Both the position numbers and the translations under genes were made by a program. DNA of 64,000 nucleotides from Candidatus Zixiibacteriota bacterium (GTDB lineage Bacteria > Zixibacteria > MSB-5A5 > WJJR01 > JAJRUJ01), in contig JAGVQM010000011.1 in the NCBI GenBank assembly GCA_020051695.1, positions 186,001-250,000 on the forward strand, in the 5' to 3' direction. The notes under the pieces are model-generated. The model had not been told where the DNA came from, made no database searches, and saw only the letters and a list, made by a program, of their open reading frames with translations. Numbering within the stretch: position 1 is the first letter of the stretch; each line of letters opens with the position of its first letter. Shown here one piece after another: positions 19,924-34,542 of the stretch.

Positions 19924-21699
19924 TTAAACGAGGCGGGGAAGATAAATGGAGAACGTGCTGCCGCTGCCGAGTGTGCTTTTAACCTCGACACGTCCGTTGT
20001 GGGCCTGGACGACATGTTTAACGATGGCCAGGCCCAGTCCGGTACCACCCTGATGACGGCTGCGGGCCGCATCGACGCGATAGAACCGCTCAAAAAGCCG
20101 GGGCAGATGCACGGACTTGATACCGCAGCCGTGATCCTGCACGGAAACGATAATCTCGTTATCACTTGCAGTTGCCGCCATATAGATGGTTGATCCCGGG
20201 GCGCTGTATTTCGTGGCATTATCGATCAGATTGATAAGCGCATGTTCCAGTTGAACGGGATTAATCTGCGCCATCAGGTTTTTATCGGCAGCGACTTCAA
20301 TGATAACCTCGCGGGTCTGGGCTATTTGCCGGCAGGTGAGGACTGAGGATTCCACAACTGCAGCGACATCCCCGCTCGACAACCGGGTTTTGCCGCCCTC
20401 GGTTTCGTTTTCCAACCGGGCGAGGGACATCAGGTCCTCGACCAGACTGTTAAGGCGCGCAGTGTGCCGGATAATCATCTCCAGAAACTTGCGGTTGTCG
20501 TCCGGCTTTTCCCCGCCGCCGTCGAGAAGTGTCTCGGCAGCGCCGGCGATCGCCGTAATCGGGGTTTTCAGCTCATGCGACACATTGGCCACAAAATCCC
20601 GCCGGACATTTTCCAGCCGTTTCAGACGGGTAATATCATTGATAACGACCACGACCCCCACGCGCCGGCCTTCGGCATCAAGCAGACCGGAGCCATGCGC
20701 ATGCAAGTATCGATTGGGTTCACCGGTCAGCACGATTTCCTGTTCTACCGGCCGGTCGCCGGCCAACGCCCGGCCGATGAAATCGTGCAGCGTGGCGAAG
20801 CGGGCAACTTCGTGAATGGGATGGCCCTGTGCTCCTGTGGGGTCGATTTCCAGCAAAGTTGCTGCGGTCTGGTTCAGCGTGACGACGTTCTCATTGGCAT
20901 CCAATGCGATGACGCCTTCGGACATGCTGGCCAGAATCGCTTCAAGTTCATTGCGTTGCTGTTCGATGAGATGGATGCGGGAGGCGAGATTGCCGGCCAT
21001 CAGGTTCAACGATTCCGCCAGAACGGCGATTTCCTCAATATTGGTGACCGCGAGCCGGGAGGCCAGGCGGCCATCGGCGAAGGCCGTCGCCCCCTGTTGG
21101 AGCTGCGCCAGTGGCCGGGTAATTCGCCGGAACAGGAAAAGACTGAGCAGTGTCGCCACTACCGTAATAATTAAACCGTTCAGCAGCAACTTGCGATACA
21201 ATGCGGCCAGGGCCGATTCTGCGGCGGTGAAAGGGTTCGCTGTTCGGACAGCGCCGATAATTGCGCCGTCTGTGTCGGCAGGAACAGCTACATATATCAT
21301 GGTCGTTTGCAGGGTATTGCTGAACCGGATTTCCGTTCCGACTGTTCCGGCCAGCGCCTGCATGATTTCCGGCCGTTGGGCATGATTTTCCATTACCGCG
21401 GGGTCCTGATCGGAATCACCGAGAATTCGGCCCTCACGGTCGACAACTGTGATTCTGGTCTGCGACAGCTGCCCGAGTTCTTTGCACAGGGAGTCAATTG
21501 TCGCGCCGTCACCGGCGGCCAGCGGGTCGGCCACCCGCCGCAGGATCAGTCTGGCGCGGATTTCCAGCGCGTCGGTAATTTCATCAAAATAGAGCCGGCG
21601 AATTTCGGATGATGCATAAAGGGCCGCAAGGACCAGCGCCAGGATGATGATTGCCAGGTAGTACGGGAAGACGTTCCAAACCAGTTTGCGACGTTTCAT
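19924..21699 (-). CDS. phoR: Phosphate regulon sensor histidine kinase PhoR
   Basis: A 591-residue membrane kinase. It has membrane helices at residues about 10-30 and 170-190 around a periplasmic region, then HAMP (RRITRPLAQLQQG), PAS (about 250-355, ILASMSEGVIALDANE), HisKA with His375 (ANVSHELKTPITAI) and HATPase (LINLIDNATKYS, GTGLGLAIVKHVV). This is the standard PhoR layout in non-enteric bacteria. Its ATG overlaps the phoB stop (ATGA). It should phosphorylate PhoB under phosphate limitation, under control of the PstSCAB-PhoU complex encoded just downstream. Confidence 0.93.
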   Translation of the reverse strand: MKRRKLVWNVFPYYLAIIILALVLAALYASSEIRRLYFDEITDALEIRARLILRRVADPLAAGDGATIDSLCKELGQLSQTRITVVDREGRILGDSDQDPAVMENHAQRPEIMQALAGTVGTEIRFSNTLQTTMIYVAVPADTDGAIIGAVRTANPFTAAESALAALYRKLLLNGLIITVVATLLSLFLFRRITRPLAQLQQGATAFADGRLASRLAVTNIEEIAVLAESLNLMAGNLASRIHLIEQQRNELEAILASMSEGVIALDANENVVTLNQTAATLLEIDPTGAQGHPIHEVARFATLHDFIGRALAGDRPVEQEIVLTGEPNRYLHAHGSGLLDAEGRRVGVVVVINDITRLKRLENVRRDFVANVSHELKTPITAIAGAAETLLDGGGEKPDDNRKFLEMIIRHTARLNSLVEDLMSLARLENETEGGKTRLSSGDVAAVVESSVLTCRQIAQTREVIIEVAADKNLMAQINPVQLEHALINLIDNATKYSAPGSTIYMAATASDNEIIVSVQDHGCGIKSVHLPRLFERFYRVDAARSRHQGGTGLGLAIVKHVVQAHNGRVEVKSTLGSGSTFSIYLPRLV

Positions 21700-22388
21700 G
21701 AGGTTTCCCGCAATCGGTACCCGACGCCCCTGATTGTTTCGATGTGATCGCCGTGTTGGCCGATTTTTTTGCGCAGGTTGGCCACCTGGACATCGATGGC
21801 GCGGTCAGTGATGACATGCTGGCCATCTCGCAGTTCATCAATCAGCTGCGACCTGCTGAAGACCCATCCGGGGCGCCGGGCCAGTGTGGACAGCAGCATA
21901 AACTCCGTATGGGTCAGGTCCACCAATGTACCGCCGACGGTCACCTGGTGCCGCCCCGGTTCGATCGTAATTTCCCCAACCGTGACGGTCCCCTTCGTCG
22001 TGCTCTGATTGTCCGGTTCCCGGCGCAAAATTCTTCGCACCCGCGCCAGTAGTACCCTGGGGCTGAACGGTTTGGTGACATAATCAGCCGCGCCCAGTTC
22101 CAGGCCGGTCACGATGTCAACATCCTCGTCGCGCGCAGTCAGCATAATCACCGGGATCCGGCGCGTATTTTCCTCCGCTTTCAGGCGGCGGCAGACCTCC
22201 AGTCCGTCGATGCCCGGCAGCATCAAATCCAAAAGGACCAGATCCGGAGCATCGGCCCGGGCCCGGGCCAATCCGGTTTCTCCCGAGGAGGCGGCCAGCA
22301 CCGTGAACCCCTCGCGTTCGAGGTTGTGTGAAACCAGTTCAATGATATCCTGCTCGTCCTCAATGATTAGAATTTTCTTTCCGGTCAC
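21696..22388 (-). CDS. phoB: Phosphate regulon response regulator PhoB (OmpR family)
   Basis: I place the start at GTG 22388, which follows GGGAGG at 4 bases; the frame runs open upstream to 22604, but those codons do not resemble the family. The 230-residue protein has a receiver domain (Asp54 in VLLDLMLPGIDG, KPFSPRVLLARVRRILRR) and an OmpR/PhoB winged helix (LTHTEFMLLSTLARRPGWVFSRSQL, VDVQVANLRKKIG). It is cotranscribed with phoR and should bind the Pho box near 19835. A TATATT-like -10 is visible upstream near 22415. Confidence 0.93.
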   Translation of the reverse strand: MTGKKILIIEDEQDIIELVSHNLEREGFTVLAASSGETGLARARADAPDLVLLDLMLPGIDGLEVCRRLKAEENTRRIPVIMLTARDEDVDIVTGLELGAADYVTKPFSPRVLLARVRRILRREPDNQSTTKGTVTVGEITIEPGRHQVTVGGTLVDLTHTEFMLLSTLARRPGWVFSRSQLIDELRDGQHVITDRAIDVQVANLRKKIGQHGDHIETIRGVGYRLRETS

Positions 22389-23068
22389 AAGGCCTCCCTT
22401 GTTGATCCTGCGGACAATATAGGAATTGCCGTCCGGAAAAACAGTAGTTTCTCCCGGGATGGACTTCCGTGATGTGAGCGCCGGACCCCGCAAGGTTGAT
22501 TGTTTTGTCGGGACTTTTGTGCCGTTGGGCAGACTGAGCCAGATTGCGGTGGGGTAAAAAGCTTGTGGCAGCCGGCGGCCAGGCCGCTTTGTATTCAAGA
22601 CCACGGGTCGGCGTAGGCCCGGAGCAGCGCAGAATACCCGGCCCGCAGCACTCGGGCGGGAATTGGGGTGGCGGCCGCGATTCCTCGTTGCAGAATCAGA
22701 CCAGAGATATTATATTTCCAGCAGGACATCATGGCGGGCACGAGGCGGATATGGCTCGGCGGTGAGCGTATTCGCAGACAGGGAACAACATGACATGGGA
22801 CATACCTGACAGGCGTTGTCCAGTTGTACAGCAGCGATCCTGCGGCAGGTGATCATGTGCGGATGCCGGACGATATCAGCGTGGATTATCCTGCCTGTTT
22901 ACGGCACGATGTGACCTTACTGTTCAATGACCGGGCCGGAAAGTCGGCACACAATGATCGTCGGACGCAAATCGTATTCGGGTGCTCATTTCGCCCAGAG
23001 ATCGTTTCCTGCCGCCCCCGGTTCGTTTTTCAGGATTGTCTAAGTACCTGTTTGAGTGAGAGTTGGTC
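22389..23068. other. Divergent intergenic region between phoB and the large kinase regulator
   Basis: About 680 bases separate two divergently read genes. Open frames within it (for example 22544-22765 and 22824-23072) show no family resemblance or ribosome site. It presumably holds both promoters. I could not identify a confident operator, sigma-54 site or RNA element here. Confidence 0.5.
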
Positions 23069-26000
23069 ATGAGCTTGCATATTCGATCGCAGCGCTTCGA
23101 TTCCTTGAAAAAAATATCGGCGTCCGACTTCAGTTCGGTGTTTCGCGCCGTCGACACTGTCGGCCGGCATGAAGTGGCTTTGAAGGTTGCCGCCGGTACC
23201 TCCGGTCCCCATCGGGACGCGCTGTTAAAGGAATTCAGTTTCCTTTCGCGCTGCAATCATCCCAACATTATCGAAGTCCATGACTTGAGTGATGCCCGCA
23301 CCGCCACGCCGTTTTTTACGATGAAATGGATCGAGGGGTGCACCCTTTCCTCCGCAGGACAAATGTACGGTGCGGGCGCGATCGTGGAAGCCATACCCTC
23401 TTTATGCCATGCGCTGGCCGAAGTCCACGATATGGGGTATGTCTATGGCGACTTGCACCCTTCGAATGTCCTGCTGGGCAAGTGTAACGGCGGTATTGCC
23501 ACCACGCTGATCGACTTCGGGTTGGTTTCCCGGATCGGCGCCATGAATCCCCGCGAATTATGGGGCATGCCGGAATATATGCCCCCCGAGGTCCGGCGGG
23601 GAGACCCGGTCAGGCCGGCCAGTGACGTATATTCATTCGGCATCCTGTTGCAGAAACTGCTCTGGGGTGATGCACAGCTCATGCCGCCGGCGGCCTCCAG
23701 TCCGTTGAATTCGAAGATGCTCCGGGAGCTTATCGATCGGTGTGTTGAATATTACCCGGAGTACCGCCCGCAGGATTTTCATGAGGTTGGCCGAATGTGG
23801 TCGCGGCAGGTCATCACTCCGCAGGGTAAAACCGGCCGGCAGGTCATGGTCGGCAAAAGTCAGCGCTGGGCTATCGGGCAGCATATTCACCTGGCGCAGA
23901 TGGAGGAACTGGCGGGGGATCTGTTTGCCCATGGCGGCGGTGTGCTGAGCGTCAGCGGTTTCGGCGGCGCGGGCAAAACGACGCTGGTCGACCGCTATCG
24001 CCGGAAATTGCAAAACCAGGGTTACCGCACGATCCGTATTGTTTGTGACAACCTGCACCAGGACAGTGCGCGCATTTTTGAAGCAGTGCGGGAGGCCGCC
24101 GGTTCCCGTGCGGCCGGGCAGGATCATGGATTGGATTCCGCCGAACTGTATTTTTTCCTGACCGTTCACGATGGAATCGATCTGCAAAGTGTTGATTTCG
24201 ATTTGCTTCTTTCGGCCGTGCGCAGTCTGCACATAGTTTGTATCATCGAAAGCCCGTCAGCGGCGGATATGCAGCCGGTGGCCGGGATCAGGTCGGTGCA
24301 GGTCAATCCGCTGACGCGTGATGATTTCGACCGCCTGTGTGAGGCCCTCTTCAAACACACGCCGGCCATTTCCGCGACGACGGGATTTTTGTACTCCGCC
24401 TCCGGTGGGTTGCCGGGCGTGCTCACTCAGAAGTATCGCGAATATTCGGCGTATCTTCAGCAGTGCAACGAGAGTGATGAGTTCAACTGGCGCAGGATGC
24501 CGCAGGAAGCTGCGGAGGAATGGATGCGGGTACTGAGCGATCTGCCGGCGGAAGGCCGGCGGGTGGCGCAGGCCGTTGCCGTCCTGCTCCCCCCCTTTAC
24601 GGCAAAGCATATCGCCGCAATGGCCGGCATGGGGGAGGAGACGGCCCGGACGTGGATGGCGGAATTCATTAACATCGGGTTCATCAGAGCAGCCGGGAAC
24701 CAGGACCAGCCCGCGTATGATACCTTCTCGATCTGGGTCGATGACGCAATCCGGACATTTGCGGCGGCGACCGGCGCCTCGCAGGGCGCGATCCCGGCAG
24801 ATGGCGATGACCGTTCATCCCGGGGTCCCCTGCCGCTGCGTCAGGCGCTGCTGGACCCGGCCGGCCTGTTGGGAATGGACCGGCTGCCCGCCACACACCA
24901 TGATCTTCGCTGCCTGCCGTATATGGCGAGGATTTGCCGCCAACTGATCCACGGGGGCTTGCCGTGGGGCGGTGTTACGGCGCATCTTCGCCGTACGATC
25001 TTTAAATCTGTCATTGCCAATTATGAGTCCGTGGCGGCGCACAAGCAGGCCAATTGCTGGGCGCGGCGGCTGGCCACGCTGGAATTGCATTCGACGTCCC
25101 CGGACCGTCCCCCGCTGCCGGCCGATATTTCCGAGGCCCTGCAACTGTTGAACCGTCATTGCACGGCCCGGGAGACCGTGGCGTGGCTCGACAATTTATG
25201 TCAACGATGCCCGCAGTTGGTCCATGATGTCCAGGCGCTGTTGCTTAGTGAACGAGGGGTCGTCGAATTGCGGCATAACCATCTCGACCGTGCGCTGCAA
25301 TATTTCTTCGAAGCCGAAGCCGTGTATAACCAGGACGACTATCGCGACCATCGGCGGGCGCGAAACCTGAGCCGCATCGGCGTCATCTTCCATAACCGGA
25401 AAAACTATCCCGTGGCGCTCAAATACTACGAGGCGGCGAAGGACATGCTCCGCGAACATCCGGACGTGGACGTCGCGGCGGCCGTGGAGATGAATATTGG
25501 TATCCTGTTGACTGCCGTGGGCCAGGCGCGGAAGGGATTTTCATATTTCAAATCGGCTTTGGCGTATGCAAAACGCACTCATGACCTGCGCATGCTGGGT
25601 TTTGTGGCGCGAAACATGGTCGTCGTGATCGGCGATCTGGAACCGGCGCCCGAGGCGGTCCGTGTTGCCGAAGAAGCGCTGTCGACGTTGCATAATACGG
25701 TTGAGCGCGCCGACGATGCGATCGTTTATTTCAATCTGGGCTGGGCGCATTTGCGCGCCGGAAACGGCCGCACCGCCTACGCCAACATCATGCGCGGCAT
25801 CAATCTGTCGCGCAGGACCAGCAACAGCCGGTGGCTGGGCGTCAACTATCTCAATCTGGCACGGCTATTTTCCCTTCAGGGGGATCTGCGCAAGGCGATT
25901 TCTTTTGCCTTGAAATCCCTCGTGGAAGCTCGTCGGCAACACTCGCGTGATGCCGCGGCGGAGGCCTGCCGGGTCATTGCCCTGCTGCTGACACAAGCCG

Positions 26001-27958
26001 GCGATCACGTCCGCGCCGGCAGGTACTTGTCCCATGCGTTGCAGCGCCGCACACCCGGCGAGAACCAGCGTAGTGATTTTTTTACGGACATGACTGAGGC
26101 GGAAATCCTGCTGCATCACGGCAAGCTGCCCGAAGTGCAGGCGCTATTGGACAGGTGGTCGAATAGTGCGGTGGATGTACTCCCGGGGTGGGTTTGTCTT
26201 CTCCACCGGTTGTACGGGCTGTTGCACCTGGCGGCGGGCCGGCAGGGGGAAGGTATCAATGAACTCCGCGATGCCGGGTGCCGGGCGCGCCTTTTGGGAC
26301 GGTACGACCTGTTGATCCCCATATACCAGGATATTTTGCGCGCATACGCGAAATCAGCAAATTCCCGGGCCGCGTTGCCCTATGCCCATGAGCTTCGTCG
26401 AATCTATCGAAAGGTGGGTCGGATGGCCAACGACGAGATGCTGAAAACTGTAATCAGGGAATTGACGGAAAAATCCGATGACCGGCGGTTTGCGGAAATG
26501 GTGCTCCGGCTGTCCGAATCGCTGACCAAATTTTCGGACAAACATAAATTGCTCGATTTCCTGCTGCAGGCGGCGGTAGATTATTTCGGCGCCGACCGGG
26601 GGGCGCTGATCTCCAGACACCCGTCCTCCAAGGGGCTGTTCATCGAGGCGCAATGCGGGCTCCAGTCCGGGATCGACGAAGACGACACCCTGGAAATCAG
26701 CCGTAGCGTGATCCGGCGCGTTTCCCGCACGTCGCAGTTTATCAAAATCGATAATGCGCCCGAGGACCCGCTAACCCGGACGAAGAAAAGCATCCTGCAA
26801 CATAATATCCTGGCGGTGATGTGCGTCCCGATTTTTCACAACAATGAAATCTGGGGTGTGCTGTACCTGGATAACCGGTCCGTCCCCGAGGCCTTCAAAG
26901 GTTCGGACAGCAAAATGCTGCAGGCGCTGGCCAATTTTATGACCCTGGCCATTGAACAAAGTGATGAGATCAGCCGGCTGCGGCTGCGGGAATCCGAAAC
27001 CATTACGATGCGGGACGGCATCCTGAAATTCGTCGCCGATTCACCAAAAATGGTCGAGGTCCTGGACACTGCCGATCGTATCGCCGATAGCGATGTCCCG
27101 GTGTTGATTCTGGGGGAAAACGGGACCGGAAAAGATGTCCTGGCGGCGTATATTCACCGAAAAAGCAGCCGCAGTCCGCAGCCATTCATTTCCATGAACT
27201 GCGCCGGACTGGTTCCGACACTTGCCGACACGGAATTGTTCGGCATCGAGGATAAAGTGGCCAGCGGAGTCGAATTTCGTGAAGGAAAATTCAAACTGGC
27301 TGACGGAGGGACGCTTTTCCTGAATGAAATCGGCGACCTGGCCCTTCCCGTTCAGGCAAAACTGTTGACGGCCCTGACCGATGGGATGATCGAACGAGTC
27401 GGCGGCCGGCCGATGGGTGTCGATGTCCGGTTTATCACCGCCACCAACAAAGACCTCGAAAAAATGGTCGAAGCCGAAAGTTTCCGCCTTGATTTGTACT
27501 TCCGCATCAATACCATTAAAATCACCATCCCGCCGTTGCGGGAACGAGTCGAGGACATCCCGCGTTTGGCGCGCATATTCCTCGAACATTTCTGCGTCAA
27601 ATACGGCCGCGCGCGCCTGAAAATGAGTGACGCGGTGCTGGAGGAATTGTGCTTATATTCCTGGCCCGGTAATATTCGTGAGTTAAAAGGAATGATTCAG
27701 CGCGGGGTTCTGCTGGCCCAGACCGATCGCTTTCCTGAGGGGATTACCACGCCTTCCTCTACCACGCAAAAGGCGCTGGTTTTGAAAAAACGCAATTTGC
27801 ATCAAGTCCTCGAAGAAAAAGAGCGGCAAATGGTTATCGAGGCGCTGGAATCGGAGGCGTACAATCAATCGAAGGCCGCGGACCGATTGGGAATTGTCGA
27901 ATCCACGCTCCGCACAAAAATGTCAAAGCTGGGAATTAAAAAACCGCGCCGATTATAG
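23069..27958 (+). CDS. Ser/Thr kinase-STAND ATPase-TPR-GAF-AAA+ (sigma-54 activator type)-Fis regulator
   Basis: A 1629-residue protein; ATG 23069 follows GTGAG at 8 bases (a TTG at 23063 is possible). Domains in order: a protein kinase, residues about 8-265, with Lys39, an atypical catalytic loop YGDLHPSN (126-133, no HRD) and DFG at 149-151; an NB-ARC/STAND-like ATPase with P-loop GFGGAGKTT (297-305); TPR-like helical repeats, about 700-1110; GAF, about 1150-1310; an AAA+ domain of the sigma-54 activator type with Walker A GENGTGKD (1349-1356) and arginine region FRLDLYFRIN; and a Fis-type HTH (AADRLGIVESTLRTKMSKLG). Two key sites are altered: the GAFTGA loop reads KVASGV (1396-1401), and Walker B reads FLNEIG, with Asn1419 for the usual Asp. 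It is probably a cytoplasmic signal integrator that controls the exported-peptide gene downstream. Domain calls are strong; targets are inferred. Confidence 0.9.
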   Translation: MSLHIRSQRFDSLKKISASDFSSVFRAVDTVGRHEVALKVAAGTSGPHRDALLKEFSFLSRCNHPNIIEVHDLSDARTATPFFTMKWIEGCTLSSAGQMYGAGAIVEAIPSLCHALAEVHDMGYVYGDLHPSNVLLGKCNGGIATTLIDFGLVSRIGAMNPRELWGMPEYMPPEVRRGDPVRPASDVYSFGILLQKLLWGDAQLMPPAASSPLNSKMLRELIDRCVEYYPEYRPQDFHEVGRMWSRQVITPQGKTGRQVMVGKSQRWAIGQHIHLAQMEELAGDLFAHGGGVLSVSGFGGAGKTTLVDRYRRKLQNQGYRTIRIVCDNLHQDSARIFEAVREAAGSRAAGQDHGLDSAELYFFLTVHDGIDLQSVDFDLLLSAVRSLHIVCIIESPSAADMQPVAGIRSVQVNPLTRDDFDRLCEALFKHTPAISATTGFLYSASGGLPGVLTQKYREYSAYLQQCNESDEFNWRRMPQEAAEEWMRVLSDLPAEGRRVAQAVAVLLPPFTAKHIAAMAGMGEETARTWMAEFINIGFIRAAGNQDQPAYDTFSIWVDDAIRTFAAATGASQGAIPADGDDRSSRGPLPLRQALLDPAGLLGMDRLPATHHDLRCLPYMARICRQLIHGGLPWGGVTAHLRRTIFKSVIANYESVAAHKQANCWARRLATLELHSTSPDRPPLPADISEALQLLNRHCTARETVAWLDNLCQRCPQLVHDVQALLLSERGVVELRHNHLDRALQYFFEAEAVYNQDDYRDHRRARNLSRIGVIFHNRKNYPVALKYYEAAKDMLREHPDVDVAAAVEMNIGILLTAVGQARKGFSYFKSALAYAKRTHDLRMLGFVARNMVVVIGDLEPAPEAVRVAEEALSTLHNTVERADDAIVYFNLGWAHLRAGNGRTAYANIMRGINLSRRTSNSRWLGVNYLNLARLFSLQGDLRKAISFALKSLVEARRQHSRDAAAEACRVIALLLTQAGDHVRAGRYLSHALQRRTPGENQRSDFFTDMTEAEILLHHGKLPEVQALLDRWSNSAVDVLPGWVCLLHRLYGLLHLAAGRQGEGINELRDAGCRARLLGRYDLLIPIYQDILRAYAKSANSRAALPYAHELRRIYRKVGRMANDEMLKTVIRELTEKSDDRRFAEMVLRLSESLTKFSDKHKLLDFLLQAAVDYFGADRGALISRHPSSKGLFIEAQCGLQSGIDEDDTLEISRSVIRRVSRTSQFIKIDNAPEDPLTRTKKSILQHNILAVMCVPIFHNNEIWGVLYLDNRSVPEAFKGSDSKMLQALANFMTLAIEQSDEISRLRLRESETITMRDGILKFVADSPKMVEVLDTADRIADSDVPVLILGENGTGKDVLAAYIHRKSSRSPQPFISMNCAGLVPTLADTELFGIEDKVASGVEFREGKFKLADGGTLFLNEIGDLALPVQAKLLTALTDGMIERVGGRPMGVDVRFITATNKDLEKMVEAESFRLDLYFRINTIKITIPPLRERVEDIPRLARIFLEHFCVKYGRARLKMSDAVLEELCLYSWPGNIRELKGMIQRGVLLAQTDRFPEGITTPSSTTQKALVLKKRNLHQVLEEKERQMVIEALESEAYNQSKAADRLGIVESTLRTKMSKLGIKKPRRL

Positions 27959-28072
27959 ATCTTGGTCTTGCTGCAATGACACAGGCGAACCAGGCAAAAA
28001 ACTTACTGAAATTCGCGATTCTGTTAGTTTGTAATTAGAATAGCCGCGTCTTTGTGCGGAATATCTTATTGT

Positions 28073-28101
28073 TATGCAAATGGTTGTGTTTTGTATGCAA
28101 A
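28073..28101 (+). promoter_or_regulatory. Direct repeat TATGCAAA, candidate activator sites
   Basis: TATGCAAA occurs at 28073-28080 and again at 28094-28101, with starts exactly 21 bp apart (two helical turns). This phasing upstream of a -24/-12 promoter is what is expected of enhancer-like sites for a Fis-type activator. Binding is inferred. Confidence 0.45.
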
Positions 28102-28104
28102 ATA

Positions 28105-28122
28105 TTCGCGGAAAAACGCGAA
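28105..28122. promoter_or_regulatory. Inverted repeat TTCGCG-N6-CGCGAA, candidate operator
   Basis: A perfect 6-bp inverted repeat with a 6-base spacer lies directly upstream of the -24 element. The ATTCGCG half occurs once more at 28011-28017. It could be the site of the HTH protein encoded at 28634 or of the AAA+ regulator. Confidence 0.4.
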
Positions 28123-28126
28123 ATTT

Positions 28127-28142
28127 GGGCATGAATTATGCC
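28127..28142 (+). promoter_or_regulatory. Candidate sigma-54 (-24/-12) promoter
   Basis: The invariant GG (28128-28129) and GC (28140-28141) are separated by exactly 10 bases, and the bases between (CATGAATTAT) keep the C, A, G and R positions of the consensus TGGCACGRNNNTTGCW. Transcription would begin near 28153, upstream of the exported peptide gene. The neighbouring gene encodes a sigma-54-activator-type AAA+ protein, which raises the likelihood. Confidence 0.6.
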
Positions 28143-28291
28143 TGTGGAAGACTGCGCTCAATAATCACCGATAAATGTTGATTTTATTTTGTTGCCCTGC
28201 ATGTAGTTAACGTTCTGTCGGTCACTCCGCTCAATTTTCGGCCCATCTTTTTGTGTGTGCTTCCTGAGGAGCAAAATTCAGGAGGTACAAC

Positions 28292-28531
28292 ATGAAGCGA
28301 TTCAGATGCGGTTTTCGATCCATCCCGGCCGTGTTTTTTGTTGCGGTTCTGTTTTGCGCGGCGTTTTGCGGAACGGTGCCCAACTCGGCGCTGGCTGAGG
28401 GTGGCAGTGATTTGCCGGTCACCGGCGATACGGCGGTGGCGGCCACATTGGTGCCCGGCGATCAAGGCGCCGAGCCGGGTGAGGTAAGCATCTTTGCGAC
28501 CGCGCTTATTGTCTTCGGCAATGTGCTTTAG
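28292..28531 (+). CDS. Small exported peptide of unknown function
   Basis: A 79-residue protein whose ATG follows AGGAGG at 6 bases, a strong ribosome site. Residues 1-35 form a Sec signal peptide: a basic start (MKRFRCGFR), a hydrophobic core (AVFFVAVLFCAAFCG) and a probable cleavage at ALA-EGG. The predicted mature part is about 44 residues, acidic (EGGSDLPVTGDTAV, PGDQGAEPGEVS), with a hydrophobic C-terminus (IFATALIVFGNVL). I recognise no family. It sits behind the candidate sigma-54 promoter next to the multidomain kinase regulator, as expected of a secreted signal or surface peptide made on command. Confidence 0.75.
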   Translation: MKRFRCGFRSIPAVFFVAVLFCAAFCGTVPNSALAEGGSDLPVTGDTAVAATLVPGDQGAEPGEVSIFATALIVFGNVL

Positions 28532-28633: not shown

Positions 28634-28993
28634 ATGAATAAACAGACACGTCTGATCTATCTCTTGAATATTCTCTCCAGGCCGGAGGGGACGGCTGCGG
28701 CGGAGTTGGCTGAACGATGCAAGGTTTGCGAGCGAACGATTTATCGGGACATTGGTGATATTGCCCTTGCCGGATTTCCCGTAATGCACGATCACGGGTA
28801 TCGAATCCTCAATGTTGCAGCGGCCCCTCCGGGCAATTTCACGTTTGGTGAGCTGGAAATTCTGGGGCAGATTGTCGGAAGCGCACTGCCGACGTCGGAT
28901 CAGGCGAACGAGATGGCCCTGCTCGGCATCCAGGCCAAAGTTGAACGTGCGATATTCCAATTCCCCTCCCGCGTTTGCCTGAAAGGGGCATAA
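28634..28993 (+). CDS. HTH (YafY/DeoR-like) regulator lacking the WYL domain
   Basis: ATG 28634 follows AGGA at 6 bases, giving 119 residues; the frame is open from 28550, but the earlier codons are not conserved-looking. Residues 3-60 form an HTH_11 winged helix (LIYLLNILSRPEGTAAAELAERC, CERTIYRDIGDIALAGFPV). Residues 70-115 resemble the linker of YafY-type regulators (FTFGELEILGQIVGSAL). It stops where a WYL ligand domain of about 170 residues would begin, and I see no WYL remnant downstream. It may be a genuinely short repressor. It is probably coexpressed with the exported peptide. Confidence 0.75.
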   Translation: MNKQTRLIYLLNILSRPEGTAAAELAERCKVCERTIYRDIGDIALAGFPVMHDHGYRILNVAAAPPGNFTFGELEILGQIVGSALPTSDQANEMALLGIQAKVERAIFQFPSRVCLKGA

Positions 28994-29748
28994 GTCCCGC
29001 GGGGTACGAGCGGAACGGTCAGATTAGCGCGTTCGGCACAGGATACTGAATGAGCGGCGGTTGTTTGCTGAGTTCGTGGGTTTAGCACTCGGCACGACCC
29101 CTGGTGCGGGTCGTGTCTCCATCCTGTCGCGGGGTGATCAGCGGCGTTTACCAAGACCAGACTTTTGCCGAATGCTTCGCTACGGAATCAATCATGTGAA
29201 AAAAATTGCACATTTCATGTGTGTGACTTCATTCCGCTGCAAACAAAGACGTTTTTCTCTTGACAAAAACGACAATCGCTGCTAATTAGCTACTGTAGTG
29301 TTGTGGTTAAAGTTACCGGCGTTTTTTTATATCGTGGATTACGGGAGACATTACGGGAAGGGATTGGCGAAACAGTCCATGAGAGAAACTCAAGAATGCC
29401 GGCCGTATGTGACATCTATTCTCCGGAACACTAGTGCTTTGCCATGCATGGTGATAGCTATGCGGAGATCCATGTTTTTTTCTCCACATTACCTCCGGGC
29501 GCACGTGGGGAGCATGATCCGCGCCAGAGTATGAGTATTCGGCTCGGCAATTGCATTAGTGAAACGCTGGAGTTTTTGTGTATTGGTGCAAAATGGATCA
29601 TACAAGGTTATTGCGCCCGATGAATTCAGGTATTCCCAATTTTCCGGAAAGGGCGGCTTTCCGCAAAATGCCGGGATCGCTTCATCAATGTTTATGTACG
29701 ACAGCGAAGAGACAAACAAATAACCATTCAAATCTGGGAGGTGCAGGT
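28994..29748. other. Long leader/intergenic region before the giant secreted protein
   Basis: About 755 bases without a convincing gene. It contains an 8-bp inverted repeat CACGACCC/GGGTCGTG (29093-29115) without a T run, a TTGACA hexamer at 29260 and a small CTAC-T-GTAG palindrome at 29290-29298. The giant gene's frame stays open upstream to 29578, but the real start is at 29749. Confidence 0.5.
29260..29288 (+). promoter_or_regulatory. Possible sigma-70 promoter
   Basis: A perfect TTGACA (29260-29265) is followed at 15-17 bases by weak -10 candidates (GCTAAT or TAATTA near 29281-29288). It would give a leader of about 450 bases for the giant secreted protein. The -10 is poor. Confidence 0.25.
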
Positions 29749-32700
29749 ATGCGCCAACGCATCATTGTACTTCTGATGCTCGTACCCCTCGTGTTGTGTA
29801 CCACGACCGCCTTCGCCAGTTGGGGCGTGGAATTCCAATCGAAAACGGTCAATGCCGGCGATGTCGGTGTGACCGTGGGCGTCAAGGGCTACTGGAATCT
29901 GGCGATTTCCTCGATCAGTATCCCGGTGGTGGCCCGCAGCGTTTCCGGTGGAGCATTCTGGACGGGACCTTTGCCCTATGATACCGGTGGCAACGGGTAC
30001 TGGCACCCCTACGCGCAGGGCGTAACCTGGAGCTGGTTGTTCCCCTGGGCGGCGCTGCTGGAAGAATTCAATACGAAGAAACCGGTTGCTCCGTGCCCCA
30101 CGGAAGGTGATGTGGCTTACGATGCGATTTCGCCGGACCATTTTCTGATCGCCTCAGTTGGTTCCGGAGCGGCTCCGCCGGCTGAACCGGCCGGGCGGAC
30201 GTTTTGTACGTTCAGCTTCACGGCGGGAGCGACCGGAGGGACATTCGAATTCGACACGGCGTGTTTCACGCCGACCTTAACCACGCTGTCGATAATCGAC
30301 AACGCGTTCCCGCCGGTAGAACACGGGCCGTTGGGGACGAATGAGGCGTTCTTCAACAAAGGGATCATCACCATATCCGGCGGATCGCCCACGCCACCGG
30401 TGATTACCTGTCCGGCTGATCCGACGGTTGAAATCGGCCAGTTGGTGGATTTGGCGGTCACGGCGACTGATGATGGCTTGCCGATTGCACCGTTGACGAT
30501 GACCGCGGAGGATGTTCCCGGATTCCTTGGTTTCACCGACAACGGTGATAATTCCGGCAGCTTGACCGGGACGCCGGGGTGTGGCGATCCGGGGCAGTAT
30601 ACAATCCGGCTGATTGCCAATGACGGTGAGCTGGCGGATACCTGTTTTGTGATCGTGACGGTTAATGCGGATACCCAAGACCCGGTGTTGACCTGCGGTG
30701 GTGATGTGACGGTCGGCAATACGCCGGGTTTGTGTGAGGCGGTTGTCAATCTGACCGGCCACTCCACGGCCACCGATAATTGTCCCGGCGTGGTAGTCAG
30801 TTATGCTCCGGTTTCGGGTTCTACTTTCCCGAAGGGCACGACGCTGGTGACAGCGACGGCGACCGATGCTGCGGGCAATACAGCGACCTGCACGTTCAAC
30901 GTGGTTGTGCAGGACACCGAAGACCCGATACTGACCTGCGGCAATGACGTGACGGTCGGCAATACGCCGGGTTCGTGTGAGGCGATTGTCAATCTGACTG
31001 GCCACTCCACGGCTACCGATAATTGTCCCGGTGTGGTGGTCAGTTACAATCCGGCTTCCGGCTCCACCTTCCCGGTGGGCACGACGCTGGTGACGGCGAC
31101 GGCGACCGACGCCGCGGGCAATACCGCGACCTGCACGTTCAACGTGATTGTAGAAGACACCGAGGACCCAGCACCCAATTTCCCGGCTGAACTCGTTGTT
31201 GATGCCGATCCGGGCCAATGTTATGCCACGGTTGTATTCGACTTTACCGCCGCGGATAATTGCCCCGGAGAGATAACCATTGCCTATAATCCGTCCTCGG
31301 GTTCGACCTTCGATGAAGGTACGACGACGACCGTGGAGATGACGACGACGGATGCCGCGGGCAACTCGGTGACGAGCTTTTTCGACGTGACCGTGAACGA
31401 GGTCCCTCCCGAATTTGTTGCCGATCAGGCGTCGTTGACATTCAACTATATCGTCGGTGAGGCCGTGCCGCCGGCGCAGAATGTGAACATCACGAATGCC
31501 GGCTGCGGATCTTCCGATTTCTTTGTGGTTGACAATTTGCCGGCGTGGTTGTCGGTTACGCCGATGGTTGCCACTGCTCCGGCGGCGCTGGCGTTTACGG
31601 TCCAGGACCTTGGTTCATTGGCGCCGGGCACGTACACTTTTGATGTCGAAGTACATGAAAGTGTGCCGATTGCGTTGCTCGGCAAGCAGGCGCCGCTTTA
31701 CGTCGCAGTTACACTGAATGTTATCGGGCAGGAGAATATCGCGCCGATCATCGCCTGTCCGCACGATACCACATTGTATGCGGATCAATCGGTGGTGCTC
31801 AATGTATCGGCGACCGACCTGAACGGCGATGCCATCACCCTGGCCGTTGAGGATGCCGGCGGCGGGGCTTTGCCTGTGCAAGCCGCATTTGTCGACAACG
31901 GGGACGGCACAGGGACTTTTTCATTCATTGTCTGGTGCGCTGACCTGGGAAGCCGCACGCTCCGGTTCATCGCCAACGACGGCGAACTGGCCGACACCTG
32001 CTATACCGTGCTGACCATCGAGGATAACACGCCGCCGGAGGTCTATTGTCCATCAGACGAAAGTCAGTTACATTACACCGCTCCGGGCGTGTGTTATGCC
32101 ACCGCCGAATACGACGCATATGTCACGGATAACTGCACCGAAGAAGGCAATATTATCGTCACATTCGATCCACCTTCCGGTTCGCAGTTTGACGTGGGTA
32201 TCACTCAAGTAACCGCAACTGCCACGGATGAAAGCGGCAACAGCAGCACCTGCACATTCAACGTGACGGTGGAAGATCATCAAACACCGGAAGTTACGTG
32301 CCCCGGTGATATTACCATAGATGATGGTGGTAGCGGCACGGGTGCAGTCGTTAATTTCGACATCATTGTATCCGACAATTGCCCTGATCCCGAGGTCACA
32401 ATCAATTATCCTTCAGGTTCGTTCTTCCCGACCGGCACCACTGAGGTTACCGTTGATGTTTCCGACGCCCAGGGCAATGCGACCGGGTGCAGTTTCTTGG
32501 TTACGGTCAACCCGCCGGCTACACCGGTGATTATACTGGTGGATCCGAATCAGGCCGCGCAGGGTGATGACCTGACAGTCCATATTACCGGGTTAAACAC
32601 CTGTTTCGGCGAGGGCAGTTTCACGATTGTCGAGCTGACTCAGGGCAGTGCGACGATTACCGGGACCAATGTGGTGGTTTCCAGCCCAACCGAACTGGAT

Positions 32701-34542
32701 GTTGATTTTTCGATCCCCGGCGATGCGGCACTTGGCCTGTATGAAGTCGCCGTCGGCGAATCCGGCGGTTGCGGCGTCGTGGCCCTGCCGGACGGCTTTA
32801 CCGTCCTGGCGGGCGGCCCGACTGAAATCTGCGGCCAGGTGATCAACGTGGCCGGCGGCGGCCTGCCCGCACATGTGTCCCTCTGGGGGGCGCTGGGCGG
32901 TCTGATGGGTTCGGCCGACGCTGATGAGTTCGGCTACTTCTGCATCCCGGTGGACGCGGGCAATTACGATGTCCGTGTGACGCTGGCGGGTTATTGCACC
33001 GAGATCGTCCTGGGTATCCCGGCTCCGACAGAAGAGTTGCAGGTAGTTCTCGAGACAATCCCCAGCCCGGTCGTTACGCCGTATGTTGCCGATTACTGGA
33101 GTATCAATGCCACGCTCTACGGTGGTCTGTTGATGGTCGGTGATGTGATTACCGCATACGATCCGGATGGTGTCCTCTGCGGTGTGGCGTATGTCAGCGC
33201 GCCCGGCGAATACCTGATCCACGTGTACGGTGACGAGCCGGCGACGAGTCCGGGGATGGATGAAGGCGCCGAAGACGGCGATGTTATTACCTTCATGCTC
33301 AATTGCGAGTGCCCGCTGGAGGGCGCCAACCTCTGGATGAACCATCATTCCTACAATGAGGACCTGGCTTTCGAATGTGAGCGGATACAGGAAATCCCGC
33401 TCTGCGGCGATTGGACGCTGATTTCCTATAATGTCGTTCTGGCAGACCAGACACTGGAGAATGTCCTGTCTTCGATCGACGGCCAGTACGAACGGGTCAT
33501 CAGTTCACTGTGTGACGTCGGCGCCGTAACCTGGGCGGCCGGCCGGCCGGCGGAGTTGAACGACCTGACTGAGATGGACAACGAACACGGCTACTGGCTG
33601 TATGCGCCGGGAGTCGATGTCCTGACGATCACCGGGCCGCCGATTGCCGCGGATAGTCCGATTGCTTTGTGTGACGGCTGGAACGTGATCTCGTATCTGC
33701 CGAACATGCTGGACGATCTGACACATGCCCTGGGCTCGATCGCCGGAGATTATGAATACGTCATCGGCTTCGATTGCGAATACGGCGTGCAGACTTATGA
33801 TCCGGCGCGTCCCGAGTTCCTGAACGACCTGGTTTGTCTCCACCAGGGAGCAGGGTACTGGATTAAGATGGTCAATCCCGCGACGTTAACCTATCCGATT
33901 TCGGGTTATGCGTGTATCGGGACCACGACGATTCTGCCGCGGCCGGTCAACCTGACCCGCCATGTCACACCGACACCGTGGTCCTGCGATTTCTGGTCGG
34001 TCGGCAACCCCGGGGGCGCGGAAGCCGGAGCGATCATTACCGTCCGCGATGAGGACGGCACGGTCTGCGGCCAGAGTGTGGCCCTGGCTGATGGTGCGTT
34101 CCTGGTCCACGTGTACGGCGACGATCCGGCGACTCCCGCCGATGAAGGTGCGACCATGGGTTCGATGCTCAGCTTCGATATCGACGGTGTGACCGCCGAA
34201 ATCAGCGGCAGCGACCAGTGGGTCGAACGCGGTTCGCAGGAAGTGACCCTGCACCGTCCGGATTCAGCGGCGCAAACGCCGAAGACCTGGGTGCTGAACC
34301 AGAACTATCCGAACCCGTTTAACGCCGAGACAGTCATCAGCTTTGCGCTGCCGACGTCCTCGGATTGGAGCATCCGCATCTACGACATCACCGGCCGCCT
34401 TATCGATCAGCTGAATGGCCGGGCGGAAGCCGGACTGGTTTCGGTGAACTGGCAGGCGGTCAATGTACCGTCCGGTATTTACTTCTACCGGCTGAGCGCG
34501 GGTGAATTCACTGAAGCGCGCAAGATGACGCTGATGAAGTAA
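29749..34542 (+). CDS. Giant secreted multidomain protein: HYR/Ig repeats and T9SS-type sorting domain
   Basis: ATG 29749 follows GGGAGGTG at 5 bases and opens a signal peptide (VLLMLVPLVLCTTTAFAS), so the protein is about 1597 residues. Order of domains: cohesin-like N-terminal region (to about 220); Ig/cadherin-like domain (CPADPTVEIGQLVDL); three HYR repeats of 81 residues (about 311-553, each with DNCPG and FxxGTTxVTATATDAAGN); a BACON-like segment; a second Ig-like domain (CPHDTTLYADQSVVL); two more HYR repeats; an IPT-like domain; a carboxypeptidase-regulatory-like domain (EICGQVINVAGG); two related Cys domains (LCDGWNVISYLP); and a C-terminal sorting domain (NQNYPNPFN, IYDITGRLID, PSGIYFYRL). 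It should cross the outer membrane by the T9SS and act at the surface in adhesion or polymer binding. A strong terminator follows. Confidence 0.9.
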   Translation: MRQRIIVLLMLVPLVLCTTTAFASWGVEFQSKTVNAGDVGVTVGVKGYWNLAISSISIPVVARSVSGGAFWTGPLPYDTGGNGYWHPYAQGVTWSWLFPWAALLEEFNTKKPVAPCPTEGDVAYDAISPDHFLIASVGSGAAPPAEPAGRTFCTFSFTAGATGGTFEFDTACFTPTLTTLSIIDNAFPPVEHGPLGTNEAFFNKGIITISGGSPTPPVITCPADPTVEIGQLVDLAVTATDDGLPIAPLTMTAEDVPGFLGFTDNGDNSGSLTGTPGCGDPGQYTIRLIANDGELADTCFVIVTVNADTQDPVLTCGGDVTVGNTPGLCEAVVNLTGHSTATDNCPGVVVSYAPVSGSTFPKGTTLVTATATDAAGNTATCTFNVVVQDTEDPILTCGNDVTVGNTPGSCEAIVNLTGHSTATDNCPGVVVSYNPASGSTFPVGTTLVTATATDAAGNTATCTFNVIVEDTEDPAPNFPAELVVDADPGQCYATVVFDFTAADNCPGEITIAYNPSSGSTFDEGTTTTVEMTTTDAAGNSVTSFFDVTVNEVPPEFVADQASLTFNYIVGEAVPPAQNVNITNAGCGSSDFFVVDNLPAWLSVTPMVATAPAALAFTVQDLGSLAPGTYTFDVEVHESVPIALLGKQAPLYVAVTLNVIGQENIAPIIACPHDTTLYADQSVVLNVSATDLNGDAITLAVEDAGGGALPVQAAFVDNGDGTGTFSFIVWCADLGSRTLRFIANDGELADTCYTVLTIEDNTPPEVYCPSDESQLHYTAPGVCYATAEYDAYVTDNCTEEGNIIVTFDPPSGSQFDVGITQVTATATDESGNSSTCTFNVTVEDHQTPEVTCPGDITIDDGGSGTGAVVNFDIIVSDNCPDPEVTINYPSGSFFPTGTTEVTVDVSDAQGNATGCSFLVTVNPPATPVIILVDPNQAAQGDDLTVHITGLNTCFGEGSFTIVELTQGSATITGTNVVVSSPTELDVDFSIPGDAALGLYEVAVGESGGCGVVALPDGFTVLAGGPTEICGQVINVAGGGLPAHVSLWGALGGLMGSADADEFGYFCIPVDAGNYDVRVTLAGYCTEIVLGIPAPTEELQVVLETIPSPVVTPYVADYWSINATLYGGLLMVGDVITAYDPDGVLCGVAYVSAPGEYLIHVYGDEPATSPGMDEGAEDGDVITFMLNCECPLEGANLWMNHHSYNEDLAFECERIQEIPLCGDWTLISYNVVLADQTLENVLSSIDGQYERVISSLCDVGAVTWAAGRPAELNDLTEMDNEHGYWLYAPGVDVLTITGPPIAADSPIALCDGWNVISYLPNMLDDLTHALGSIAGDYEYVIGFDCEYGVQTYDPARPEFLNDLVCLHQGAGYWIKMVNPATLTYPISGYACIGTTTILPRPVNLTRHVTPTPWSCDFWSVGNPGGAEAGAIITVRDEDGTVCGQSVALADGAFLVHVYGDDPATPADEGATMGSMLSFDIDGVTAEISGSDQWVERGSQEVTLHRPDSAAQTPKTWVLNQNYPNPFNAETVISFALPTSSDWSIRIYDITGRLIDQLNGRAEAGLVSVNWQAVNVPSGIYFYRLSAGEFTEARKMTLMK
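30679..31164 (+). repeat. Tandem 243-bp coding repeat (HYR units)
   Basis: Two adjacent 243-bp (81-codon) units start at 30679 and 30922 and are nearly identical in DNA as well as protein, including GTGACGGTCGGCAATACGCC in each. A third unit starting at 31165 is diverged. The similarity suggests recent duplication or gene conversion within the surface protein. Confidence 0.85.

Follow-up and report, generated by a model that had tools for sequence, protein, structure and literature searches.

A giant kinase/TPR regulator with a Phe-less contact loop, probable sigma-54 activator of a secreted-peptide cassette in Zixibacteria

The enhancer-binding proteins of the NtrC, NifA and NorR type associate an AAA+ fold, equipped with Walker A, arginine finger and sensor II motifs, with a GAF input domain, a Fis HTH domain and a linked -24/-12 promoter. 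In PspF, the Phe residue of the GAFTGA loop contacts region I of sigma-54, a loop enters the DNA downstream of position -12, and changes of the Phe residue yield defective activators (PMC9770992). Genome surveys use GAFTGA as the test of a true sigma-54 activator and drop the proteins which lack it (PMC3162934, PMC12316311). Among the proteins with a defective GAFTGA, TyrR, DhaR, HupR and VpsR are either sigma-70 dependent or of doubtful dependence. The GVATGV loop of DVUA0100, an activator from Desulfovibrio vulgaris linked to type III secretion genes, was noted earlier by authors who predicted a sigma-54 dependent action; the protein was presented there as an isolated oddity whose long N-terminal region was of undescribed type, and no peptide cassette was reported beside it (PMC4641369). 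With respect to input, the RRNPP regulators (Rap, NprR, PlcR, and Rgg with SHP) and the STAND-TPR proteins MalT and AfsR offer examples of cytoplasmic TPR regulators next to a gene for a short secreted peptide.

The regulator considered here, R, is encoded at 23069-27958 (+ strand) of the window, i.e., the whole stretch of 64,000 nucleotides analysed, located on contig 25 of a Zixibacteria genome that is 98.9% complete. The open reading frame starts with the ATG at 23069, a second in-frame start being possible at the TTG at 23063, and encodes 1629 residues. The Pfam matches comprise a Pkinase domain (residues 13-205), a STAND-type P-loop matching AAA_16/AAA_22 (about 274-356), four TPR_12 stretches with the top one at 884-951, a GAF domain (1159-1295), the Sigma54_activat domain PF00158 (1322-1485, E 3.8e-52), AAA_lid_14 (1491-1553) and HTH_8 (1581-1621), so that the single chain with these domains, as described in the original prediction, is borne out. 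The kinase reads Y-G-D-L-H-P-S-N where HRDLKPEN is expected, again as first described; since VAIK keeps its Lys and both the catalytic Asp/Asn and DFG are present, the missing HRD does not amount to an inactive kinase, and the domain, judged by these residues, may be active. Within the AAA+ domain, Walker A (GENGTGKD), the arginine finger (FRLDLYFR) and sensor II (WPGNIRE) are intact, the predicted fold matches NtrC1, FleQ and PspF (TM about 0.9 on target), and the arginine finger, sensors and Walker A are retained across 25 full-length relatives. In the genomes G005-G007 (loci L028-L030 and L046-L048), R is a shorter protein, about 514 residues long, which comprises GAF, AAA+ and HTH in a frame without the kinase and TPR part. 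A gene pair, probably for a histidine kinase and a PhoB-like response regulator, adjoins R in divergent orientation (19924-22604, - strand).

Compared with the NtrC/NifA/NorR-type proteins, R thus shares the AAA+ fold, Walker A, arginine finger, sensor II, GAF input, Fis HTH and a linked -24/-12 element, but differs by its kinase, STAND and TPR input, by a Phe-less [VA]A[TS]GV loop and by an order-specific Walker B Asn. Two of the usual attributes of sigma-54 enhancer-binding proteins are accordingly lacking, the GAFTGA loop with its Phe/Tyr and the Walker B Asp-Glu pair, while a PF00158 domain with Walker A, arginine finger and sensors is present. At residues 1396-1401 (27254-27271, + strand), where GAFTGA is expected, R reads KVASGV in the context E-L-F-G-I-E-D-K-V-A-S-G-V; phmmer aligns KVASGV to the GAFTGA region of NtrC1, NifA and ZraR, and this alignment together with the activators of the same genome confirms the substitution noticed previously. 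Since the 17 other activators of the genome all exhibit GAFTGA-like loops and LDE, the deviation of R is real.

Loops of this kind, typically [VA]-A-[TS]-G-V and devoid of Phe, occur in about 45 homologues from Zixibacteria and extend to many other phyla, including Acidobacteriota, Gemmatimonadota, Thermodesulfobacteriota, Eisenbacteria, Myxococcota and Planctomycetota, and form the so-called VATGV class, to which DVUA0100 also belongs. The homologues in relatives follow ELFG[IV]xxx[VA]A[TS]GVxxREGKF with minor variations, and the strict loop pattern is found in 26 of the 132 genomes of the phylum, such counts over related genomes not being independent. The canonical GAFTGA is absent from every homologue associated with the cassette described below, the Phe residue from all except one, and the 12 extra loci recovered through the peptide profile alone all carry loops without Phe. 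The exception, L050 from genome G047, possesses an NAFTGV loop, and its promoter reads TTGC. In a tree of 84 AAA+ domains, built with the loop columns kept in and with canonical activators sampled from one genome, a single branch (support 98/96) divides 16 own-genome canonical activators from all the Phe-less ones. As judged from these comparisons, the loop of R is a member of a conserved class and not a degenerate copy, which supports the proposal of a diverged subfamily whose loop has a chemistry of its own. TyrR, DhaR, HupR and VpsR have likewise lost a functional GAFTGA, but in the family of R the altered loop runs uniformly through the whole class and accompanies a -24/-12 element.

The Walker B motif of R reads GGTLFLNE, with Asn1419 (codon 27323-27325, + strand) in place of the Asp residue, in agreement with the original prediction. 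LNE is confined to the order of the window (G000 and G005-G008), LDE being found in nearly all other relatives, including the nearest homologue of R, that of the same-family genome G001. On this distribution, the Walker B Asn appears as a trait separate from the loop variant and limited to that order, and it could impair ATP hydrolysis in the window copy. The supposition that KVASGV and LNE might be conserved together consequently holds for the loop class but not for LNE, which is order-restricted and not family-wide. Similarly, the idea that close homologues would turn out canonical, leaving this copy simply degenerate, fails for the loop and is partly borne out for Walker B by the Asp of G001.

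The cassette itself, which the earlier picture of the locus had missed, follows in the phylum the order R, leader, P and usually H; in about 41 loci from Zixibacteria, 228-368 nt separate the stop of R from P. In the window, the leader covers 27959-28291, P (28292-28531, + strand) encodes a 79-residue predicted secreted peptide, with a signal peptide running to ALA/EGG and a hydrophobic C-terminus (SIFATALIVFGNVL), and H (28634-28993, + strand) encodes a 119-residue HTH_11 regulator. The members of the P family measure 68-90 residues and comprise a predicted signal peptide usually ending in AxA before D/E-G, a middle part rich in Pro, Thr and Asp, and a hydrophobic C-terminus, secretion being judged from the sequence. 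Of 41 peptides, 39 have at least 7 hydrophobic residues in their final 12 positions, compared to 10% of shuffled mature parts, and between the related genomes G011 and G037 the C-terminus is nearly identical and the middle divergent. No Pfam match was obtained for P. The top matches of a P profile adjoin R genes already known; among 20 further loci retrieved with it, 12 contain R with a Phe-less loop together with P, and in the remaining 8 no R was recognised, several of these being weak peptide matches or contig ends. The rules for peptide and promoter were set after the first loci had been seen, and only the 12-locus test set is independent. The same peptide test applied behind 18 canonical activators gave 3 matches, none of them resembling P, and a peptide sought behind VATGV genes of other phyla was not found; the cassette looks specific to Zixibacteria and, like the P family, appears undescribed in the open-access literature.

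Some variations occur among the loci. One R is followed by two near-identical tandem peptide genes in L055 (genome G055), an extra degenerate AAA+ ORF of about 258 residues, Sigma54_activat-like, lies directly 3' of P in L044 and L045, and no peptide was detected behind R in L049, L058, L054 and L140, L054 being situated at a contig end and L049 and L058 having H directly.

The leader between R and P contains a family promoter element, [TC]GGCA[CT]-N5-TTG (of the GGCA-N8-TTG type), located 57-78 nt 5' of the P start, in most cases 186-224 nt beyond the stop codon of R. The promoter score is passed by 20 of the 29 first-set loci, against 1.3% of shuffled leaders, and, under the rule fixed beforehand, by 10 of the 12 independent loci. 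Sigma-54 promoters normally carry GC at positions -13/-12; in the 30 passing loci this pair is GA in 13, GT in 11 and GC in 6, i.e., A or T occupies -12 in 24. Upstream of the -24 position by about 36-40 nt, an IHF-like CAANNNNTTR site stands in register, with 10 exact occurrences in 33 leaders compared to 0.39 in shuffles, and two HU/IHF genes are present in the genome. Inverted repeats, candidate R binding sites (UAS), score 6.26 on average for the leaders taken as a set, compared to 5.36 for shuffled ones.

In the window, the positional counterpart of the -24/-12 element, CGGCCCATCTTTTTGTG (28239-28255, + strand), is weak, with a score of 5.4 of 7.2 and a spacing of 13 instead of 12; the equivalent from G001 is no better (5.4, no TTG), and a 13-spaced element also occurs in L046-L048, from the same order. 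The IHF-like site CATGTAGTTA (28200-28209, + strand) retains 5 of the 6 positions of CAANNNNTTR in the register of the homologues. The inverted repeat TTCGCGGAAAAACGCGAA (28105-28122) is a candidate binding site which, for the window alone, does not rise above shuffles. The promoter placed at 28127 in the original prediction (GGGCATGAATTATGC) is indeed present, but its score is that of the background, about 2.2 such matches falling in every 1500 bp of window, and it is out of register with the homologues; it was discarded. A linked -24/-12 promoter in a host possessing sigma-54 is thereby found at the level of the family, and weakly in the window.

One might suppose from these features that the family is alive elsewhere and the cassette dead in the window, where R combines Asn1419, in a position occupied by Asp in its nearest homologue, with a 13-spaced promoter of the weakest class. 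Such a decay is improbable, however: the reading frame of R runs uninterrupted over 1629 codons, P and H show no damage, and LNE is common to four other genomes of the order (G005-G008), which is unexpected under decay.

The Phe-less loop and the altered -12 base may be connected, a suggestive idea because the Phe of PspF contacts region I and a loop of that protein enters the DNA near -12 (PMC9770992). A strict co-variation of loop and -12 base was rejected: L044, L045, L222 and L224, outside the main clade, pair VATGV-type loops with the canonical TTGC, so that the loop change does not require a promoter change. Genome-wide counts of TGGCAY-N5-TTGC versus TTG[AT] were dropped, being swamped by coding sequence. 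In a small, hand-judged sample from G011, the P promoter of which is of the variant type, a clear promoter position was recognised for about 7 of 20 TTGC sites and at most 3 of 20 TTG[AT] sites, and this genome accordingly also carries ordinary TTGC promoters. Other intergenic TGGCAC-N5-TTG[AT] sites occur in G011 and G037 (e.g., L184, L185 and L187), some of them common to both genomes, and are possible further targets of the variant class.

Taken with the single sigma-54 of the genome, ordinary in its region I and RpoN box, and with the occurrence of sigma-54 in 54 of 58 relatives, nearly always in single copy, these data fit R as a working enhancer-binding activator which, with an altered contact loop, probably drives P-H through sigma-54. 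What was observed is that R and P form a conserved cassette, H being usually included, that the loop belongs to a conserved class, that the promoter element and the IHF-like site keep a constant register, and that the genome has one ordinary sigma-54. As a functional member of the Phe-less class, R would integrate signals via its kinase, STAND/TPR and GAF domains and bind leader sites directly behind its own gene; an IHF/HU-type bend would bring it to the -24/-12 promoter, where it would spend ATP to open the promoter for the downstream P-H genes, so that the secreted peptide and the HTH regulator, both small, are produced. We infer that R binds the leader, that the element is a promoter for sigma-54 RNA polymerase and that P and H share a transcript. 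Against this assignment stand the loss of the GAFTGA Phe contact, given the defective PspF mutants (PMC9770992), and, in the window, the weak promoter and the Walker B Asn.

Alternatively, R could act independently of sigma-54, in the manner of TyrR, HupR and the NtrC from R. capsulatus, by binding the leader and recruiting or blocking the sigma-70 polymerase after the loss of the Phe residue. The known sigma-70-dependent relatives have broken GAFTGA loops (PMC3162934), and in some loci TTGAC-like leader sequences are readable as -35 hexamers. Yet no -10 hexamer is enriched after the TTG (mean 3.03 versus 2.85 of 6), and the reading of TTG[AT][AC] as a -35 hexamer was given up on that ground; moreover, GGCA at -24, a spacing of 12 bases and an IHF-like site are all characteristic of sigma-54, and the 25 full-length relatives retain the arginine finger, sensors and Walker A, all of which renders this alternative rather unlikely. 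The former suggestion that R works without the usual remodelling is similarly disfavoured by an AAA+ site otherwise intact, a single ordinary sigma-54 and a -24/-12 element with an IHF-like site at constant distance. It might also be imagined that one of the 17 canonical activators of the genome serves the P promoter, as activators often work at a distance, and that R controls other genes; the linkage of R and promoter in about 41 loci across the phylum, at a near-fixed distance and with the leader directly behind R, makes this a slim prospect.

Granting that R activates P-H through sigma-54, it may be asked whether P, or its hydrophobic C-terminal segment, is in turn a signal read by the TPR superhelix of R, thus closing a loop. 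The analogy lies with the RRNPP systems: a TPR regulator is present and adjoins the gene for a propeptide, the secretion of which is judged from its sequence. The putative R-P pair differs from RRNPP and MalT/AfsR by its AAA+ sigma-54 output, an unrelated peptide sequence and its occurrence in another phylum. The TPR superhelix, predicted well (pLDDT 83), resembles peptide-binding TPRs in general, its profile gives weak matches to NprR, Rap and AfsR, and the fold matches MalT domain III among generic TPRs. The generic character of these folds and the single weak partial match to an oligopeptide-binding protein (PF00496) in the genome, which makes a return route for P into the cell uncertain, speak against P as a signal, which remains a rather doubtful proposition. 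P could also be purely an output, surface-located, antimicrobial or envelope-active, with R sensing something else and no feedback via P. This stands at even chances and, being compatible with the activation of P-H by R, competes only with the signalling role: the GAF and kinase domains can take other inputs, the genome offers one weak OppA-type match, and a possibly fast variation of P would be accounted for by an action outside the cell, whereas one dedicated regulator per peptide and a conserved hydrophobic C-terminus beside a TPR protein recall, by analogy, autoregulated pheromone genes. The most complete scheme, a Zixibacteria signalling circuit in which a hydrophobic peptide, once secreted, governs a giant sigma-54 activator of the kinase/TPR type, the Phe-less loop being adapted to promoters with a non-C base at -12 and a single ordinary sigma-54 serving both kinds of promoters, is unlikely to hold in full.

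A Phe-less loop that is class-wide over several phyla, and linked in one of them to -24/-12 elements, suggests that surveys relying on GAFTGA overlook genuine activators. At position -12, where published structures show the loop and sigma-54 region I in contact with the DNA (PMC9770992), the promoters have a matching change that offers a natural system for the study of loop function, and the peptide family with its cassette would be a starting point for work on signalling between cells in this uncultured phylum. Elsewhere in the window, ARAGORN calls a tRNA-Ala at 34228-34308 (- strand), probably a false one, antisense within the ORF at 29578-34542. This ORF, the start of which is uncertain, an ATG with a signal peptide lying further in, encodes a secreted protein of 1654 residues and several domains, which carries HYR-like repeats and, at its C-terminus, an NQNYPNPFN tail of the sorting type.
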